From Acidobacteriaceae bacterium (GTDB lineage Bacteria; Acidobacteriota; Terriglobia; Terriglobales; Acidobacteriaceae), in NCBI GenBank assembly GCA_027323885.1, contig DAHVZT010000054.1, positions 1-64,000 on the forward strand: a stretch of 64,000 nt of DNA. The letters are read 5' to 3'. How positions within the stretch are numbered: position 1 is the first letter of the stretch; each line of letters starts with the position of its first letter. Below the pieces are notes generated by a model. The model saw nothing but the letters and a program-made list of their open reading frames with translations. It had not been told where the DNA came from and searched no databases. Positions 37,162-44,849 of the stretch are shown here, in pieces. Position numbers and translations under genes: made by a program.

Positions 37162-38721
37162 ATGAGAATGAGCAGGCGCAGTCTGTTGTCCGGGGCCGTT
37201 GTTACGGGGGCCGCAACCTGTCTCGCTGCGCGTACCGGCTTCATTCTCGCGCTGGCGACGCCGCCGCGTCCCGATCTGGCGAAGGACCCGAGGCGTCCGC
37301 AGTTTCATTTGCTCCCGGCAGCCAACTGGATGAATGATCCCAATGCACCGATTTATTGGAACGGCAGCTACCACATGTTCTACCAATACAATCCCAACGG
37401 CGCGTTCTGGGGCGACATGCACTGGGCACACGCTGTAAGTCCGGACATGGTGCATTGGACACATCTTCCTTTGGCTCTATCGCCAACGCCGGGAGGTCCG
37501 GACGCAGGCGGATGCTTCTCGGGGACGGCCGTTGTACAAGACGGCGTGGTCACCGCGCTCTATACCGGTGTTGTATCTGTTCCGGAGGAGCAAGCGACAT
37601 TGCGCGACGGCCAACATTCTTTTCAAGAGTCTCAATGTCTGGCCACATCTGTGGATCCGCAACTGCGATCATGGTCCAAGCTGCCCAAACCTGTGATTGC
37701 CGCACCGCCCGCTGGCATGAAAGTCACTGGGTTCAGAGATCCTTCTCCGTGGCGTTCTGGAGACTGGTGGTATCTGGCGGTCGGATCCGGCATTCCCAAG
37801 AAAGGCGGAGCCGTTCTTCTCTATCGATCCAGGGATCTCCGCAACTGGGAATATCTGCACGTTCTGGCGAGCGGTCCAGGGAAACATATCGAGACTGCCA
37901 ACCAGGTCGATTCCGGCGATATGTGGGAGTGCCCGGATTTTTTCCTACTGGACGGCAAGCATGTGTTGATTTATTCGACTGCGGGAAAGTGCTGCTGGGA
38001 AAGCGGGGAACTGGACCCTAAGGAAATGGTGTTCCATCCCACGCTCAGCGGAATCCTTGATCATGGGTCCTTCTACGCTCCTAAGACCCAGCTCGACAAG
38101 TCGGGACAGCGCATTCTTTGGGGCTGGATTCCGGAGACGCGTCCGTTGGAGGAGTATCGCGCAGCAGGCTGGGCCGGAATGATGTCGTTGCCCCGCGTGC
38201 TCAACGTAAACAGCACAGGCAGCTTGTCCATGCGCGTCAATCCTGACGTTGGAATTCTCCGGAGGAACGAACAGGTTTTCGTACTGGGCAACGATGAGGG
38301 AAAGAACCGGAGAGCAATCGATCGCCTGCGATTGCATGGGTGTTGCGGCGAAATCATTTGCTCGTTTGCAGTCGGCCAGGAGCCATTTGGCTTGACTCAG
38401 CTGTTTGCGCCAGCAAGCGCGGAGAAAAACGAACTGATTTCCATTCAGTCCGATGCGGCCCATCCTGGCCATGTGTTGGTCGACGGCAAACCGATTCCGA
38501 TTCATGTTGATCGTCATGGCCAACTTCATCTGCAAATGTACGTCGATGGATCCGTGATTGAGCTGATGGTGAATCAGCAGGCAGCATACACGAAGAGGTT
38601 CTATTATCCCGGACCGAGCTCCCCTGAGATCGCGCTGCGCGTTGAGGGCAAAACGGCAAACATCGCCAAGTTGGCTCTGTGGCAATTCGCGCCTATTTCG
38701 CCGAACCGGTTGACCACGTAA
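37162..38721 (+). CDS. Glycoside hydrolase family 32 (levanase/invertase-like), Tat-type signal
   Basis: 'MSRRSLLSGAVVTGAA' N-terminus; 'WMNDPNAPIYWNGSYHMFYQYNP', 'FRDPSPW', 'MWECPDFF'. Confidence 0.9.
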   Translation: MRMSRRSLLSGAVVTGAATCLAARTGFILALATPPRPDLAKDPRRPQFHLLPAANWMNDPNAPIYWNGSYHMFYQYNPNGAFWGDMHWAHAVSPDMVHWTHLPLALSPTPGGPDAGGCFSGTAVVQDGVVTALYTGVVSVPEEQATLRDGQHSFQESQCLATSVDPQLRSWSKLPKPVIAAPPAGMKVTGFRDPSPWRSGDWWYLAVGSGIPKKGGAVLLYRSRDLRNWEYLHVLASGPGKHIETANQVDSGDMWECPDFFLLDGKHVLIYSTAGKCCWESGELDPKEMVFHPTLSGILDHGSFYAPKTQLDKSGQRILWGWIPETRPLEEYRAAGWAGMMSLPRVLNVNSTGSLSMRVNPDVGILRRNEQVFVLGNDEGKNRRAIDRLRLHGCCGEIICSFAVGQEPFGLTQLFAPASAEKNELISIQSDAAHPGHVLVDGKPIPIHVDRHGQLHLQMYVDGSVIELMVNQQAAYTKRFYYPGPSSPEIALRVEGKTANIAKLALWQFAPISPNRLTT

Positions 38722-38754: not shown

Positions 38755-39441
38755 TCAAGACTGAAGATGAATCCCGCATTCCAGCTTTTTTCCGCCCCAG
38801 CGGCCTGCGCGTGGATTGTTCGGGTCGGCAGATGGCTGCGTACACGGTTCGCAACCGATACTGCGATAGCCACGGTCATAGAGCGGGAGATGCGGGATCG
38901 CATGCGCCGTCATGTAGTCCCAGACCTGCTGCCAGTTCCACTCCGCCAGGGGACTGATTTTTTGCAGAACTTTTCCTCCGGGCAATGTATGTGCTTCAAC
39001 TTTTTTCAGGTTGGCCCGGGTTGGGGATTGTTCCCTGCGTAATCCGGTAAACCAGATGTCATAGTGCTCAAGAGAACGGAACAGCGGGGCGACTTTCCGC
39101 GTCTGGCAACATTGCGTGGGTTCGACAAGATAAAGCTTGCCAAAAGAGCCTTCATGCTGCGAGACCGTAGTTTCCGGGAGTATGTTTTTCAGATTGATCG
39201 ACCATTCGGCCACCATCCGGTCCCGATAGGCGTATGTTTCTGCGAAATGGTAACCCGTGTCGAGAAAAATCACAGGAATTTCCGGTGCCCGCCGCCGCAG
39301 CAGATGCAGCACGACCATGTCTTCCGCCTGCAGGCTGCTGGTCAGGCAAGCAGGAGCGCCGCTAGACTGGGAAAAAACTTCGTCCACAACTGCTTCGGCA
39401 CTGTACGGCTCGAACTGCTCCGCAATCTTCTGAAGATTCAT
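38755..39441 (-). CDS. cysH: Assimilatory adenylyl-sulfate (APS) reductase, Fe-S type
   Basis: 'EIPVIFLDTGYHFAETYAYRDRM', 'TQCCQTRKVAPL' plus 'GCEPCTQP' (Fe-S ligand CC...CxxC pattern) and catalytic 'ECGIHLQ'. Confidence 0.92.
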   Translation of the reverse strand: MNLQKIAEQFEPYSAEAVVDEVFSQSSGAPACLTSSLQAEDMVVLHLLRRRAPEIPVIFLDTGYHFAETYAYRDRMVAEWSINLKNILPETTVSQHEGSFGKLYLVEPTQCCQTRKVAPLFRSLEHYDIWFTGLRREQSPTRANLKKVEAHTLPGGKVLQKISPLAEWNWQQVWDYMTAHAIPHLPLYDRGYRSIGCEPCTQPSADPNNPRAGRWGGKKLECGIHLQS

Positions 39442-41111
39442 CAGCGTTCCTCACCTTCGCCTGCATACAGAATTTTTTCTAAAGCTTCTGCCAGCTTTTC
39501 GGCCGCAGTGGGGCTTTCGTCGACTTCGATCCAGCGGTCGCGTCCAAGAAATTGCTGAATTTCATATTCGATGTTCGGAGTGAGAGCATCCCGTGAGCAC
39601 ACAGCAACCAGGCCAGCTTGCTGCGCCACGCGAACCGCACTCGGAATCCCGGGACCTGTAATGTGAGGATCGTCCAAGGAGATATAAGGAATGTGGCGAT
39701 CCCGCAGTTCGGCCATGACGAGAGCGCTCCACCGGCTCGATGCTGGCGTCAGCACGAGCGGGTAATTATGAACGGCTCGGTTCCGCGACTCGCTGCCCAG
39801 GTCACGCTCCAGCATGACAGCGCCGACAGTGGCGTTGGTTACCGCGTCGATCAATATCATGCTGCCCAATGCACGATTCACGGCGTAGCGATCGAACAGC
39901 AGCGGGAGGTTGGAACTGAAATCCACCGAACCGATGTCGTTCATCTCCAACTGTGCAGCGGGGAGTTCTGCGAGTGTATGCATGTCAACCCGGGACCGGA
40001 TGGCGGTCGCTTGCACACGCACTGTGCGGGTTGTATGTTTTGCGATGTAGATGCGGCCCTTCTGCAGTGGCTCTTCATGAAGCCAGATCACCTTGCCGCC
40101 AAAGGTGCGTGACAAATGGGGCGGTGTTTCAGGAGAGACCAGCATGTCACCACGACTCAGATCGATTTCATCTTCCAACTGAATCGTTACCGGCATAGGG
40201 GCGAATGCTTCTGTCAGCTTTCCATCGTAGGTCACGATAGAAGCTACGCGTGTGCGTATTCCTGATGGAAGGGCCAGAACTTCATCGCCGGTTCGCAGAA
40301 CACCACGCGCGACCTGCCCGGCAAAGCCGCGAAAACTTGCGTCCGGCCGCAGGACCATCTGAACAGGAAATCGCAAATGGGCCTGATCGCCATCCTCGCC
40401 GTGGGAAAGTCTGTCCAGTGGAACAGTCTCCAGATGCTCGAGCAACGTGGGGCCGTCATACCACAGCGTGCGAGCGCTGCGTGTGACGATGTTATCCCCC
40501 TTCAATGCGCTGATCGGAATGATTTGCACGCTGCGCAACCCAAGCTGGTTGGCCAATACGTGGAAATCGGCGCTGATTTTCCGGTAGGTGGAGGGATCAT
40601 AGTCCACCGTGTCCATTTTGTTGATCGCGACAACCACATGCGGAATACCCAGCAACGCTGCAATCGAGGCGTGGCGGCGCGATTGCGCCAGCAGACCTTT
40701 GCCCGCATCCACCAACACGATTGCCAGGTCCGCAGTTGACGCGCCGGTAGCCATATTGCGCGTGTACTGCTCATGCCCCGGCGTGTCGGCAATGATGAAC
40801 TTTCTGCGTGATGTGGAGAAGTATCGATAGGCCACATCGATCGTGATGCCTTGTTCTCGTTCTGCCCGCAGCCCGTCGGTCAGGAGAGAAAAGTCGATTG
40901 GCCCTGCTGCGCGATTCACCTTGCTCTGCCGGATGGAAGCCAACTGATCTTCGTATACAGTCTTCGTGTCGTGCAGGAGCCGCCCGATCAGCGTCGATTT
41001 TCCGTCATCCACGCTGCCTGCCGTGGTGAAGCGAAGCATCTCACGCTCAAGATGTTCATCCAGGAAGTTCTGGAATGTGGCAGAAGTTCCTGAGCCGGTG
41101 GTAGTCGCCAT
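39441..41111 (-). CDS. cysN: Sulfate adenylyltransferase subunit 1 with C-terminal extension
   Basis: 'LRFTTAGSVDDGKSTLIGRLLHDTKTVYEDQLASI', 'IADTPGHEQYTRNMATGAS', 'VVAINKMDTVDYD'. Start overlaps the cysD stop (TAATG); stop overlaps the cysH start (TGATG). Confidence 0.95.
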   Translation of the reverse strand: MATTTGSGTSATFQNFLDEHLEREMLRFTTAGSVDDGKSTLIGRLLHDTKTVYEDQLASIRQSKVNRAAGPIDFSLLTDGLRAEREQGITIDVAYRYFSTSRRKFIIADTPGHEQYTRNMATGASTADLAIVLVDAGKGLLAQSRRHASIAALLGIPHVVVAINKMDTVDYDPSTYRKISADFHVLANQLGLRSVQIIPISALKGDNIVTRSARTLWYDGPTLLEHLETVPLDRLSHGEDGDQAHLRFPVQMVLRPDASFRGFAGQVARGVLRTGDEVLALPSGIRTRVASIVTYDGKLTEAFAPMPVTIQLEDEIDLSRGDMLVSPETPPHLSRTFGGKVIWLHEEPLQKGRIYIAKHTTRTVRVQATAIRSRVDMHTLAELPAAQLEMNDIGSVDFSSNLPLLFDRYAVNRALGSMILIDAVTNATVGAVMLERDLGSESRNRAVHNYPLVLTPASSRWSALVMAELRDRHIPYISLDDPHITGPGIPSAVRVAQQAGLVAVCSRDALTPNIEYEIQQFLGRDRWIEVDESPTAAEKLAEALEKILYAGEGEER

Positions 41112-42061
41112 TAAAAATATCCCTCTCTCTTCTTCACTTCCATGGATCCTTCTTCGTCGTGATCGATCACGCGATTTTCCCGTTCGGAACGCCGGAACGC
41201 GATCAGTTCCTGAATGATTTTCGGCACTGTATCGGCGTCGGAGCGAATAGCGCCTGTGCATGGCATGCAGCCCAAAGACCGCATGCGGCACTGGATGCGC
41301 TGGATGGATTCGCCGGGCAAAAGGGGAGTCTCGTCGTATTTCAGAATGATCGACTGGCCTCGCACAACTGCCTCGCGCTCTTGCGCAAGATAGAGCGGCA
41401 CCAATGGAATCTGTTCGGCATAGATGTAGAGCCAGATGTCGAGTTCAGTCCAGTTCGACAGCGGAAATACGCGTATGCTTTCTCCTTTGCGCAGGCGGGA
41501 ATTGTAGAGGTTCCACAACTCCGGACGCTGATTTTTAGGGTCCCACTGCCCGGCCGGATCTCGAAAGGAATAGATGCGTTCTTTGGCACGCGACTTTTCT
41601 TCATCGCGGCGAGCGCCCCCGAACGCGGCATTGAACCCACCGGATTCCAGCGCATCCAGCAAAGCGCGGGTCTTCAACAATCCACAGCAGTTTTGTGTAC
41701 CCAGCGCGAAGGGGTTCGCACCCTCATCGAGTGCTTTCCGGTTCTGATGCACGATCAGCTTTGCTCCTATGTCGCGCGCGAAGGCGTCACGGAAAGCAAT
41801 CATCTCGGGAAATTTGTAACTGGTGTCGATATGCAGCAGCGGAAAAGGAATCTTGCCTGGATAAAACGCCTTTTGCGCGAGACGCATCAGCACTGAGGAG
41901 TCTTTTCCGATGGAATAGAGCATCACCGGGTTGGAAAACTCCGCCACAGCTTCCCGAAAGATAAAAATGCTCTCTGCCTCCAACGCCTGAAGATGATTCA
42001 GTACGCGTCGCGATATTAGCGGGGGTTGGCAGCTTGAGTCGACAGAGATTGCTGTATTCAT
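41111..42061 (-). CDS. cysD: Sulfate adenylyltransferase subunit 2
   Basis: '[49 protein letters not shown]', '[26 protein letters not shown]'. Start at MNTAISV (42061). Confidence 0.95.
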
Positions 42062-42078
42062 CGGAAGAATTTCTCCTG

Positions 42079-42117
42079 AAAAATAAAAACCCACGGACTG
42101 GATTTCCAGTGCGTGGG
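42079..42117 (-). terminator. Intrinsic terminator (attenuator) in the cysDNH leader
   Basis: Minus strand: CCCACGCACTGG-AAAT-CCAGTCCGTGGG then GTTTTTATTTTTC, 18 nt before cysD; 12-bp stem with one mismatch. Confidence 0.9.
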
Positions 42118-42150
42118 CTGATGTGAATGTGACCTTAGGTTAGTGAAGGG

Positions 42151-42234
42151 TCAATCAGGCTTCCCACGCTGGCTGCGCATACACATGTCGAGCGACATGC
42201 AACACATGCAACGCATTTGTCCGCGCAGGGCCAT
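42151..42234 (-). CDS. Cys/Met-rich leader peptide of the cysDNH operon: MALRGQMRCMCCMSLDMCMRSQRGKPD*
   Basis: Direct translation; 4 Cys and 6 Met in 27 codons; sits between the promoter and the attenuator. Confidence 0.75.
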   Translation of the reverse strand: MALRGQMRCMCCMSLDMCMRSQRGKPD

Positions 42235-42246
42235 AGGAATTCATTG

Positions 42247-42275
42247 AATATACGGGTTAGTTCCGAAGAATGCAA
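42247..42275 (-). promoter_or_regulatory. Sigma70-like promoter for the cysDNH leader
   Basis: Minus strand TTGCAT-N17-TATATT; predicted start a few nt before the leader ATG. Confidence 0.6.
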
Positions 42276-42324
42276 ATTTCTTTCGCGAATCGAGAGTATT
42301 GCGCCAACTAAATTGCCGAATGAA

Positions 42325-42353
42325 TTGACTTTTTGTAAGCGAGCCGATAACGT
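42325..42353 (+). promoter_or_regulatory. Sigma70-like promoter for the sulfite reductase leader
   Basis: TTGACT-N17-TAACGT; position +1 (7-8 nt after the -10) falls on or next to the leader ATG at 42361. Confidence 0.7.
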
Positions 42354-42360
42354 ACGACTT

Positions 42361-42438
42361 ATGAAGTTCCACACAATGACGTCGAGCATGTGTTGCATGT
42401 GTATGTGTTCCATGCGACTGCGACGGTCTTTTGTGTGA
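42361..42438 (+). CDS. Cys/Met-rich leader peptide of the sulfite reductase operon: MKFHTMTSSMCCMCMCSMRLRRSFV*
   Basis: Direct translation; contains ATG TGT TGC ATG TGT ATG TGT; predicted leaderless; followed by the attenuator. Confidence 0.8.
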   Translation: MKFHTMTSSMCCMCMCSMRLRRSFV

Positions 42439-42471
42439 GCCAGCGACTTAAGTAACAACTCAGCACACCCA

Positions 42472-42516
42472 AGCACCCGCCGCGGATTCTCTGCAGCGGG
42501 TGCTTTTTTATTTTTT
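42472..42516 (+). terminator. Intrinsic terminator (attenuator) upstream of the sulfite reductase gene
   Basis: AGCACCCGC...GCGGGTGCT then TTTTTATTTTTT, followed by GAGGAG RBS and ATG 42535. Confidence 0.92.
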
Positions 42517-42534
42517 GTAAATGCGAGGAGCGCG

Positions 42535-44214
42535 ATGAGCGAAGCAATAGCATCACCCCCTTTGAAAGAAACCAAAACCCAGCGGACAGAACGTCTCAAG
42601 CTCGAAAAGAATCCCTGGGAGGCATTCAATGAAGTGCGTGAGTTTGCGCTGTCCGGTCGCGGCGCCGTATTGCCAGCGTGGGCGAGCCTGTACTTCAAGT
42701 GGTGGGGCATCTACACCCAGGGAGACGGTGTGGGCGCAATCGGCGGCTCGGGCGGGGAAGGAAAGATGTCGGAATATTTTATGATCCGAATCGCCATTCC
42801 CAACGGCATTCTTACTTCCGCGCAATTGCGCGTAATCGCCCGGCTCGCGAAGCAGTACGGACGCAATCTTGCGGACATCACGGTGCGCCAGGCCATCCAA
42901 CTGCACTGGCTTACCATCGAGTCGCTGCCGGAAATCGTCGACGAGCTGGCCGCGGTTGGTCTTTCTCCCAAGGGTGCATGCGGAGACGTAGTTCGCAATG
43001 TTACAGGCTGCCCGCTCGCTGGCTTGGCTGCCGATGAGATCATCGATGCTTCGCCGCTGGCTCTCAAAATTGTTGGCGCTCTTGCGGGTAACTCGGCGTT
43101 CTACAATCTTCCTCGCAAGTTCAAGATCTCCGTCACCGGCTGTTCGGACTGGTGTTCGTATCCGGAGATCAATGACATTGGACTGACCGCGGTCCAACGT
43201 GGACCGGAGATTGGGTACATCGTACGCGTTGGGGGAGGGTTGTCTGCGGACCCGCACCTTGCTGTCAAGCTGGATGCATTTGTTCCTCCCGAGCAGGCCG
43301 TGCCTGTTGTGCGCACGATCGCAGAAATTTTTCGCGATCAAAAAGGACTGCGTGAGAGCCGGGATCGGGCCAGGCTCAAACACCTTTTCCTGCGCGAGGG
43401 GTGGACGGCGCAATCTTTCCTTTCGGAAATCGAGGCGCGGTTGCATCATCGCTTCGATTCTGCTCCGGAAGAGAAGTTACCGCGCGACCTGCACCGCGAC
43501 CACGTCGGAGTCTATGCGCAAAAAGAACGCGGTCTGCACTATGTCGGCGCGTCTGTATTGCGCGGCAGGCTATCCGGCGAGCAGCTCGAAGCGGCTGCCG
43601 ATCTTGCGGAGCGCTTCGGCTCTGGAGATTTGCGCACCACGGTCATGCAAAACCTTCTCTTTGTGAACATCGCAGCTTCGAAGTCTGCCGAACTGGTGCG
43701 GGAATTGAGAGCGATCGATTTACCCGTAGACGGAACCTCCTTCTGGAGAGGTACGGTGGCCTGCACTGGAACAGAGTTCTGCAAACTGGCTATTACGGAA
43801 ACGAAGGGGTTTGGCCGCTGGCTGGTTGAGGAGATGGAGACGCGCCTTCCACAGTTCGATCAGCAGTTAAAACTCAACATTACGGGATGCCCCAATAGCT
43901 GCGGACAGTATTGGATCGCGGACATTGGGATTGAGGGCAAGAAGATCAAGCACCAGGGCAAGCTGGTGGACGCGTTCCAATTTGCCGTAGGCGGTGCTGT
44001 TGGAGAGTTCGCAAACATTGCCCGTCCGTTGGGGTATCGTTGCCTTTCCACCGATGTTCCAGATGCGATTGAACGCCTGTTACGTAGTTATCTCAACAAC
44101 CGATCCGGGAACGAGAACCTTCGCGCCTATTTCTCAAGACATTCCGACGAGGAATTGCGCGGCCAGCTTTCCGGAGCTTTTATTGCGCAGGAACAGAACG
44201 CGGTGACCGTATGA
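42535..44214 (+). CDS. Ferredoxin-dependent sulfite/nitrite reductase (siroheme, 4Fe-4S); assimilatory sulfite reductase by context
   Basis: 'RNVTGCPLAG', 'TGCSDWCSYPEINDIGL', 'CTGTEFCKLAITETKGF', 'NITGCPNSCGQYWIADIG' (CX5C + CX3C cluster ligands). Confidence 0.93.
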   Translation: MSEAIASPPLKETKTQRTERLKLEKNPWEAFNEVREFALSGRGAVLPAWASLYFKWWGIYTQGDGVGAIGGSGGEGKMSEYFMIRIAIPNGILTSAQLRVIARLAKQYGRNLADITVRQAIQLHWLTIESLPEIVDELAAVGLSPKGACGDVVRNVTGCPLAGLAADEIIDASPLALKIVGALAGNSAFYNLPRKFKISVTGCSDWCSYPEINDIGLTAVQRGPEIGYIVRVGGGLSADPHLAVKLDAFVPPEQAVPVVRTIAEIFRDQKGLRESRDRARLKHLFLREGWTAQSFLSEIEARLHHRFDSAPEEKLPRDLHRDHVGVYAQKERGLHYVGASVLRGRLSGEQLEAAADLAERFGSGDLRTTVMQNLLFVNIAASKSAELVRELRAIDLPVDGTSFWRGTVACTGTEFCKLAITETKGFGRWLVEEMETRLPQFDQQLKLNITGCPNSCGQYWIADIGIEGKKIKHQGKLVDAFQFAVGGAVGEFANIARPLGYRCLSTDVPDAIERLLRSYLNNRSGNENLRAYFSRHSDEELRGQLSGAFIAQEQNAVTV

Positions 44215-44849
44215 GCTTATTTCCAGCTTTCCTGAAACTCTCTGGACGCGCATGCCTGGTGATCGGCGCGGGACAGGTTGCCCTTTCCAAGGTTGACAGC
44301 CTGATGCGTGCCGGGGCGGACGTGCATGTTGTTTCGCCCAAAGCCCTGCCGGAAATTGAAGAACTGGCACGCGAGGGAGCACTGCGCTGGACCCGGAGAA
44401 AGTATGAAGTGGGAGATGTTCCCGGCTCATTTCTTGTGATCGCCGCGACGGACAATGTAGAGGTGAACCACTGCGTTTATCGGGATGCCGCGAGTCGCGG
44501 GATTCTTTGCAATGTTGTCGATGATCCGCCGTACTGCGATTTCTATTTTCCTTCTGTGGTGGAGCGAGGCCCTTTACAGATTGCAGTTTCTACTGAGGGA
44601 GAAAGCCCTGCCGTCGCGCAGCGCATGCGCCGCGAGCTGGACGCGGCATTGCCACCGGACCTAGGTCCATGGGTTCAGGAGATGGGCCGCCTTCGGCGTG
44701 AGGTTCGGACCGAGCATCCCCCATGCGAAAATCGCACCAGGCTTCTGCATACCCTGGCCCAACGGCCGTTGTGTGAACTGGAGCATTGCCCTACACGTCA
44801 GTTCGCGCGTAAAGCCAATGACGTGGCGTGTTCAGCGAGCGCAGTGTAA
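44211..44849 (+). CDS. Siroheme synthase, precorrin-2 dehydrogenase/ferrochelatase part (CysG N-terminal/Met8-like)
   Basis: 'ACLVIGAGQVALSKVDSLMRAGADVHVVSP', 'NVVDDPPYCDFYFPSVVERGPLQIAVSTEGESPAVAQRMRREL'; ATGA overlap with the upstream gene. Confidence 0.92.
   Translation: MSLFPAFLKLSGRACLVIGAGQVALSKVDSLMRAGADVHVVSPKALPEIEELAREGALRWTRRKYEVGDVPGSFLVIAATDNVEVNHCVYRDAASRGILCNVVDDPPYCDFYFPSVVERGPLQIAVSTEGESPAVAQRMRRELDAALPPDLGPWVQEMGRLRREVRTEHPPCENRTRLLHTLAQRPLCELEHCPTRQFARKANDVACSASAV

Follow-up and report, generated by a model that had tools for sequence, protein, structure and literature searches.

A short cysteine-rich open reading frame lies between a predicted promoter and the sulfate assimilation genes cysD, cysN and cysH on the minus strand of the window (the whole 64-kb stretch of DNA analysed here), and a second one precedes a divergent operon that likely begins with sir. 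The question raised by this arrangement is whether transcription of the genes is governed by translation of the ORF ahead of them and, if so, which amino acid is sensed.

The cysD and sir leaders of the window

The minus-strand elements, in order of transcription, are as follows.

42247–42275, minus: predicted sigma-70-type promoter, read directly as TTGCAT (42275–42270), a 17-nt spacer and TATATT (42252–42247)
42151–42234, minus: leader ORF of 27 codons, MALRGQMRCMCCMSLDMCMRSQRGKPD and a stop, read directly and predicted to be near-leaderless; orthologues in genomes G002 (L003) and G021 (L004)
42181–42210, minus: Cys codons 9, 11, 12 and 18 (TGC, TGT, TGC, TGT), the predicted sensor, from Cys conservation in relatives and cluster enrichment
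42163–42172, minus: putative antiterminator arm CCAGCGTGGG at the end of the leader ORF, from its pairing with the terminator 5' arm
42090–42117, minus: intrinsic terminator hairpin, CCCACGCACTGG (42117–42106), AAAT, CCAGTCCGTGGG (42101–42090), from sequence and folding
42079–42089, minus: U tract of this terminator, TTTTTATTTTT, read directly
41111–42061, minus: cysD, sulfate adenylyltransferase subunit 2, ATG at 42061 (NCBIfam CysD, 440.8 bits, cut-off 396.6)
39441–41111, minus: cysN, sulfate adenylyltransferase subunit 1, a GTPase (NCBIfam CysN, 562.9 bits, cut-off 336.1)
38755–39441, minus: cysH, APS/PAPS reductase (NCBIfam PRK02090, 249.6 bits, cut-off 154)

A first-pass annotation had described a promoter, a near-leaderless ORF, a terminator and a 10-bp antiterminator with a 2-nt bulge, all of which were found where it placed them by direct reading, and its assignment of the downstream genes as cysD-cysN-cysH is borne out by NCBIfam matches above the cut-offs. 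The TATATT box is separated by 12 nt from the ATG of the leader ORF (42234, minus strand), and the 5' UTR predicted from this promoter reading is about 5–7 nt long. In the proposed antiterminator, CCAGCGTGGG pairs with CCCACGCACTGG as CCAG/CTGG plus CGTGGG/CCCACG, a duplex of −17.7 kcal/mol (z = −2.0, P = 0.04 against shuffles); the terminator hairpin has −19.8 kcal/mol. A generic promoter/terminator scan picked up the −10 box and missed the terminator, because of the rules of the scan and not because a terminator is absent. Taken alone, the window cysD leader is a modest case and suggestive only, with P = 0.09 for its Cys cluster against dinucleotide shuffles; it is the comparative tests described below that lift it far beyond chance.

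Downstream, cysD has an AGGAG Shine-Dalgarno sequence (42077–42073, minus strand), and the start of cysN overlaps the stop of cysD. CysN carries about 115 C-terminal residues past the end of the CysN profile (39441–39790, minus strand) that have no Pfam or NCBIfam match of their own, possibly the remnant of a fused APS-kinase-like domain. CysH (38755–39441) has CC and CxxC motifs of the sort usual in APS reductases that carry an iron-sulfur cluster; a reductase of this type would suit a pathway lacking APS kinase. A large ORF (37162–38721, plus strand) converges on the end of cysH and by eye resembles a glycoside hydrolase of the levanase/fructosidase type.

The divergent leader and its operon are arranged as follows.

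42325–42353, plus: candidate promoter, read by eye as TTGACT, 17 nt, TAACGT
42361–42438, plus: divergent leader ORF, MKFHTMTSSMCCMCMCSMRLRRSFV and a stop, ahead of sir, from sequence and from relatives L113, L114 and L115
42471–42505, plus: intrinsic terminator hairpin of the sir leader, −25.6 kcal/mol, followed by a T-rich tract, from folding and sequence
42535–44214, plus: likely sir, a NirA-type sulfite/nitrite reductase haemoprotein, from family matches under the equivalog cut-offs
44211–44849, plus: sirohaem synthase of the CysG N-terminal type (precorrin-2 dehydrogenase), from a family match

The identification of the NirA-type gene at 42535–44214 as sir is likely but not certain. The leader ORF can also be read from an ATG that makes it shorter; the start at 42361 is likely the correct one, because the leader of G021 starts at the matching position. 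The candidate promoter stops 7 nt ahead of this start, and was not picked by the promoter scan, which was run with the shorter reading. Antiterminator pairing in the window's sir leader is weak, no better than in shuffles, and the relatives L113–L115 pair better. In four genomes (G001, G005, G007 and G008) sir lies directly behind cysH, and in these there is a cysD leader and none before sir, so that the attenuator appears to go with the promoter rather than with the gene.

Cysteine-rich leaders in the Terriglobia

Upstream regions of cysD from 61 relatives and, in addition, from named genomes, and of sir from relatives, were searched for Cys-cluster ORFs, defined as those with at least four Cys in nine residues. 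In raw counts, which overstate independence because the genomes are related (clustered tests are given where possible), such ORFs precede 20 of 45 acidobacterial cysD genes, where shuffles predict 0.3, and 14 of 28 sir genes, where they predict 0.2; among non-acidobacterial cysD genes 1 of 62 has one, and the 73 opposite strands have none. Just one of 57 upstream regions of cysS and cysK from the same genomes reached this density. Cys leaders ahead of these two genes were dismissed, as there was no consistent pattern, only isolated Cys-containing ORFs (e.g., L176). Many of the more distant cysD genes, including several in distant Terriglobia, have no leader ORF at all.

From the Terriglobia, 46 leaders ahead of cysD or sir were curated, picked by Cys content and position. 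The Cys cluster is retained across this set, and most other residues are variable. Cys makes up 20.6% of leader residues, a figure conditional on the Cys-based choice (the pairing, codon-use and promoter tests are not), and Met 6.8%, compared to 1.0 and 2.0% in the window genes. Among leader Cys codons the TGT:TGC ratio is 169:74 (70% TGT), as against 56:143 (72% TGC) in the window genes (odds ratio 5.8, P = 2.6e-18); with the window genes as the only background, this comparison is indicative for the other genomes. The excess gives the impression that selection in the sensor has favoured the codon that is used less. Of 45 leaders, 23 (0.5 expected) have immediately ahead of their ATG a promoter that matches the consensus at 9 or more of 12 bases, and in leaders with a recognisable promoter the −10 box stops 5–14 nt ahead of the ATG. 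Since the predicted promoters adjoin the ATG, the leaders would be near-leaderless, going by these predicted start sites. Two leaders upstream of cysD (L020 and L045) form a distinct subtype, with a common leader tail, NIFDGCT, near-identical DNA after it, and a weak U tract.

The first-pass annotation had called the window leader a Cys/Met leader, and only the first half of that name has held up. All 46 leaders have at least three Cys, and at least three internal Met are found in 11 of them, with no internal Met in eight. When close relatives are aligned, 87% of Cys positions are retained, as against 70% for Met and 62% for other residues, and the difference between Cys and Met is significant (P = 6e-5). 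A leader sensing methionine besides cysteine would account for the richness of both window peptides in both residues and for the excess of Met over the window genes, but not for the Leu, Thr or Val that stands in place of Met between the Cys codons of the G005–G008 group, nor for the poorer conservation of Met, and is improbable. Because Cys is kept more than Met and Met is sparse in most leaders, the sensed residue is most likely cysteine alone, as judged from these sequences.

Antiterminator pairing and the proposed mechanism

The best partner of the terminator 5' arm was profiled along the leaders of 29 independent clusters. The peak lies 13–24 nt short of the stop codon's end; in 22 of the 29 clusters the best partner falls within the zone from −30 to −4, compared to an expected 26% (P = 3e-8). 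The first-pass annotation had put forward covariation across relatives as a check on the antiterminator, and here its proposal did well: with one representative per cluster, each leader's own antiterminator/terminator pairs sum to −434.9 kcal/mol, against −364.6 ± 13.7 when permuted (P = 5e-5). By this comparison the predicted antiterminator arm changes together with the terminator, and the pairing is lineage-specific, with examples as different as CGTGGG/CCCACG in the window, GAGGTGGG/CCCACCTC in G038, and ACTGGCG..GGG/CCCACCGCCAGT in G033. Most homologous loci keep both the ORF and the pairing; exceptions on either count are G021 (L004), whose antiterminator pairs no more strongly than shuffled sequences do, and several distant cysD genes that have no leader.

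The effect of a ribosome footprint on folding was modelled in 44 partly related leaders with partial transcripts, because equilibrium folding of the full leader fails to separate the ribosome states. In this model the terminator 5' arm is paired upstream with a mean probability of 0.65 when the footprint is on the first Cys codon, vs. 0.41 when it is on the stop codon; when the average of the first and last Cys positions is compared with the stop, the Wilcoxon test gives P = 8e-5 over the same 44 partly related leaders. The corresponding values for the window cysD leader are 0.73 and 0.42. The earlier proposal that a ribosome stalled on the Cys codons would leave the arm free, and one at the stop codon would cover it, thus agrees with the modelled footprints as well as with the position of the arm. 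Folded to equilibrium, the RNA forms the terminator in almost all ribosome states, with a termination probability of at least 0.75 in the window. Since it dominates the completed RNA, the switch would have to be kinetic and decided during transcription, as in known attenuators. In the window model, antiterminator occupancy is equal without a ribosome and with a stalled one, and a protector hairpin is therefore not clear there. The full-leader fold does pair the antiterminator arm with the 5' end, an arrangement that the partial-transcript model does not favour in the window.

The layout of a classical translation-coupled attenuator, as first annotated, is thus recognisable in the window and in its relatives: the ORF, the position of the promoter, the terminator, the conservation of Cys and the covarying antiterminator arm are all there in the sequence and its comparison. 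We infer from them translation of the leader ORF, ribosome stalling, termination and its relief, and consider ribosome-mediated transcription attenuation sensing Cys-tRNA to be the probable explanation of the leader, at roughly 0.85. From the promoter at 42275–42247 a transcript would begin a few bases ahead of the leader ATG, and a ribosome would translate the 27-codon Cys-rich ORF as RNA polymerase moves on through the leader. When Cys-tRNA is plentiful, the ribosome would reach the stop codon and cover much of 42172–42163, the terminator at 42117–42090 would form, and transcription would stop before cysD. With scarce Cys-tRNA, the ribosome would stall in the Cys cluster, the antiterminator arm would pair with the terminator 5' arm before the 3' arm is made, and the polymerase would read into cysD-cysN-cysH. 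An independent copy of the attenuator would control the divergent sir-cysG operon, so that the two halves of sulfate reduction would both be cysteine-responsive with no need of a dedicated regulator protein.

Translational or polarity-based control as in mycobacteria, with the ORF governing ribosome access or Rho and the hairpin incidental, has some precedent, in that actinobacterial cys operons have terminator-free Cys leaders ahead of them (PMC1262725; Canestrari 2020, cited in PMC9031893). Near-leaderless starts like those of mycobacteria would fit it, as would the cysD leaders of Terriglobus albidus and Edaphobacter lichenicola (L032 and L050), which are without a clear terminator. In nearly all of the curated leaders, however, a terminator with a U tract stands between leader and gene, and the end of the ORF varies in step with this terminator, which leaves this kind of control with a small probability.

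The two divergent leaders also share repeated GCATGT/ACATGC words (TGCATGTGTTGCATGT-like, in mirror orientation in the window), which might be operators for a DNA-binding regulator, with the Cys codons a by-product. In relatives, however, the Cys residues persist although the DNA words that encode them are quite unlike these (runs of TGTTGTTGC, for example), and the opposite strand has no Cys excess; operators of this kind are very unlikely. Cys-rich peptides are able to bind metals, and the leader peptide might be a small protein acting in trans. That it would be is no more credible than the operators, given that the length, order and flanking residues of the peptides vary widely, that none has a Pfam match, and that a cis-acting role is indicated by where the leader lies and by the covariation of the antiterminator. 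If a known riboswitch or T-box were present, it would explain a leader with a terminator, but this has next to no probability here, as no Rfam family reaches its gathering score within the whole 64-kb window, and a permissive Rfam search of 42040–42560 returned just one spurious plastid match (E = 0.23). The window contains no tRNA gene.

Possible extent of the regulon and relation to known attenuators

Cys-tRNA attenuation may reach beyond cysteine synthesis. A search of 38 genomes for a terminator plus the Cys-codon pattern returned mostly the cysD and sir leaders already known, and new sites including a peroxiredoxin leader (L161); MSTLIRLLCCCCCCCSPSRRCD with a stop and a terminator is found ahead of a Prx6-type (1-Cys) peroxiredoxin gene (NCBIfam PRK13189). 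Cys-cluster ORFs of this kind, some with a terminator, precede Prx6-type peroxiredoxin genes in several genomes (L237 of G038:C24, L238–L248, L252 and L254). No peroxiredoxin copy was found in the incomplete genome of the window organism. LsfA, a related 1-Cys peroxiredoxin of Pseudomonas, is induced over 45-fold in sulfur-starved cells (PMC12581299), in keeping with cysteine starvation as the signal for these leaders. Together this suggests 1-Cys peroxiredoxin as a third target of the Cys attenuator. One other site, L158, was rejected as a Cys leader: neither a sensible leader nor a fitting downstream gene is present, and a tRNA-Cys gene adjoins it.

The broadest reading, for which the odds seem about even, is that the Terriglobia have a sulfur-starvation regulon run by Cys-tRNA attenuation instead of a CysB-like regulator, in which near-leaderless Cys-rich ORFs with their own terminators control cysD-cysN-cysH, sir-cysG and 1-Cys peroxiredoxin, and in which the device follows promoters, not genes, and has an origin separate from that of the Cys leaders of Actinobacteria and Rhodobacterales. 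It would offer a specific account, open to experimental test, of how cysteine controls sulfate assimilation in a phylum that is dominant in soil. If true, it would make a third lineage with Cys codons as the sensor, here on assimilation operons and with an intrinsic terminator, and the peroxiredoxin link would widen the regulon past cysteine synthesis. Experiments should be feasible, since sir leaders with Cys clusters are present in the cultivable relatives Terriglobus albidus, Granulicella sp. dw_53 and Edaphobacter lichenicola (now Tunturiibacter). In a 2010 terminator survey, almost no predicted acidobacterial attenuator had an associated function (PMC2965389). A literature search, mostly outside subscription journals, turned up no published Cys attenuator in Acidobacteriota or before cysD or sir.

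The enterobacterial trp, his and leu attenuators combine a leader ORF rich in codons for the product with an intrinsic terminator and a competing antiterminator. The leaders described here resemble them in having codons for the pathway product in the ORF, an intrinsic terminator, and the 5' arm of the putative antiterminator at the end of the ORF. Unlike them, they would sense Cys, precede sulfate assimilation genes and belong to Acidobacteriota; in addition, the start codon is almost at the predicted 5' end of the transcript, and a 1:2 protector hairpin is not clearly present.

Cys codons have been proposed as sensors in two other groups. In Actinobacteria, Cys-rich leader ORFs without a conserved terminator have been predicted before cys operons (Seliverstov 2005, PMC1262725), and leaderless polycysteine ORFs of mycobacteria are cysteine-responsive attenuators at the level of translation (Canestrari 2020, as summarised in PMC9031893). 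These share with the present leaders a short Cys-rich ORF, leaderless or nearly so (by predicted starts here), before sulfur or cysteine operons, a likeness of layout. They differ from them in the terminator and covarying antiterminator found here, and because of the terminator the window leader is not assigned to the mycobacterial type. The uORFC-8-2 motif of the Rhodobacterales, a tandem-Cys ORF with an intrinsic terminator, found only ahead of cysS and predicted to act by Cys-tRNA attenuation (PMC8632094), is similar in its short Cys ORF followed by an intrinsic terminator. The genes are different, however: here they are cysD, sir and 1-Cys peroxiredoxin, and cysS is without a consistent Cys leader in the genomes searched. 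Because its downstream gene is cysD or sir and not cysS, the leader is not counted as a member of that motif. In all, it would work like a classical attenuator, with a layout that is known, in a phylum and on target genes that are apparently new.
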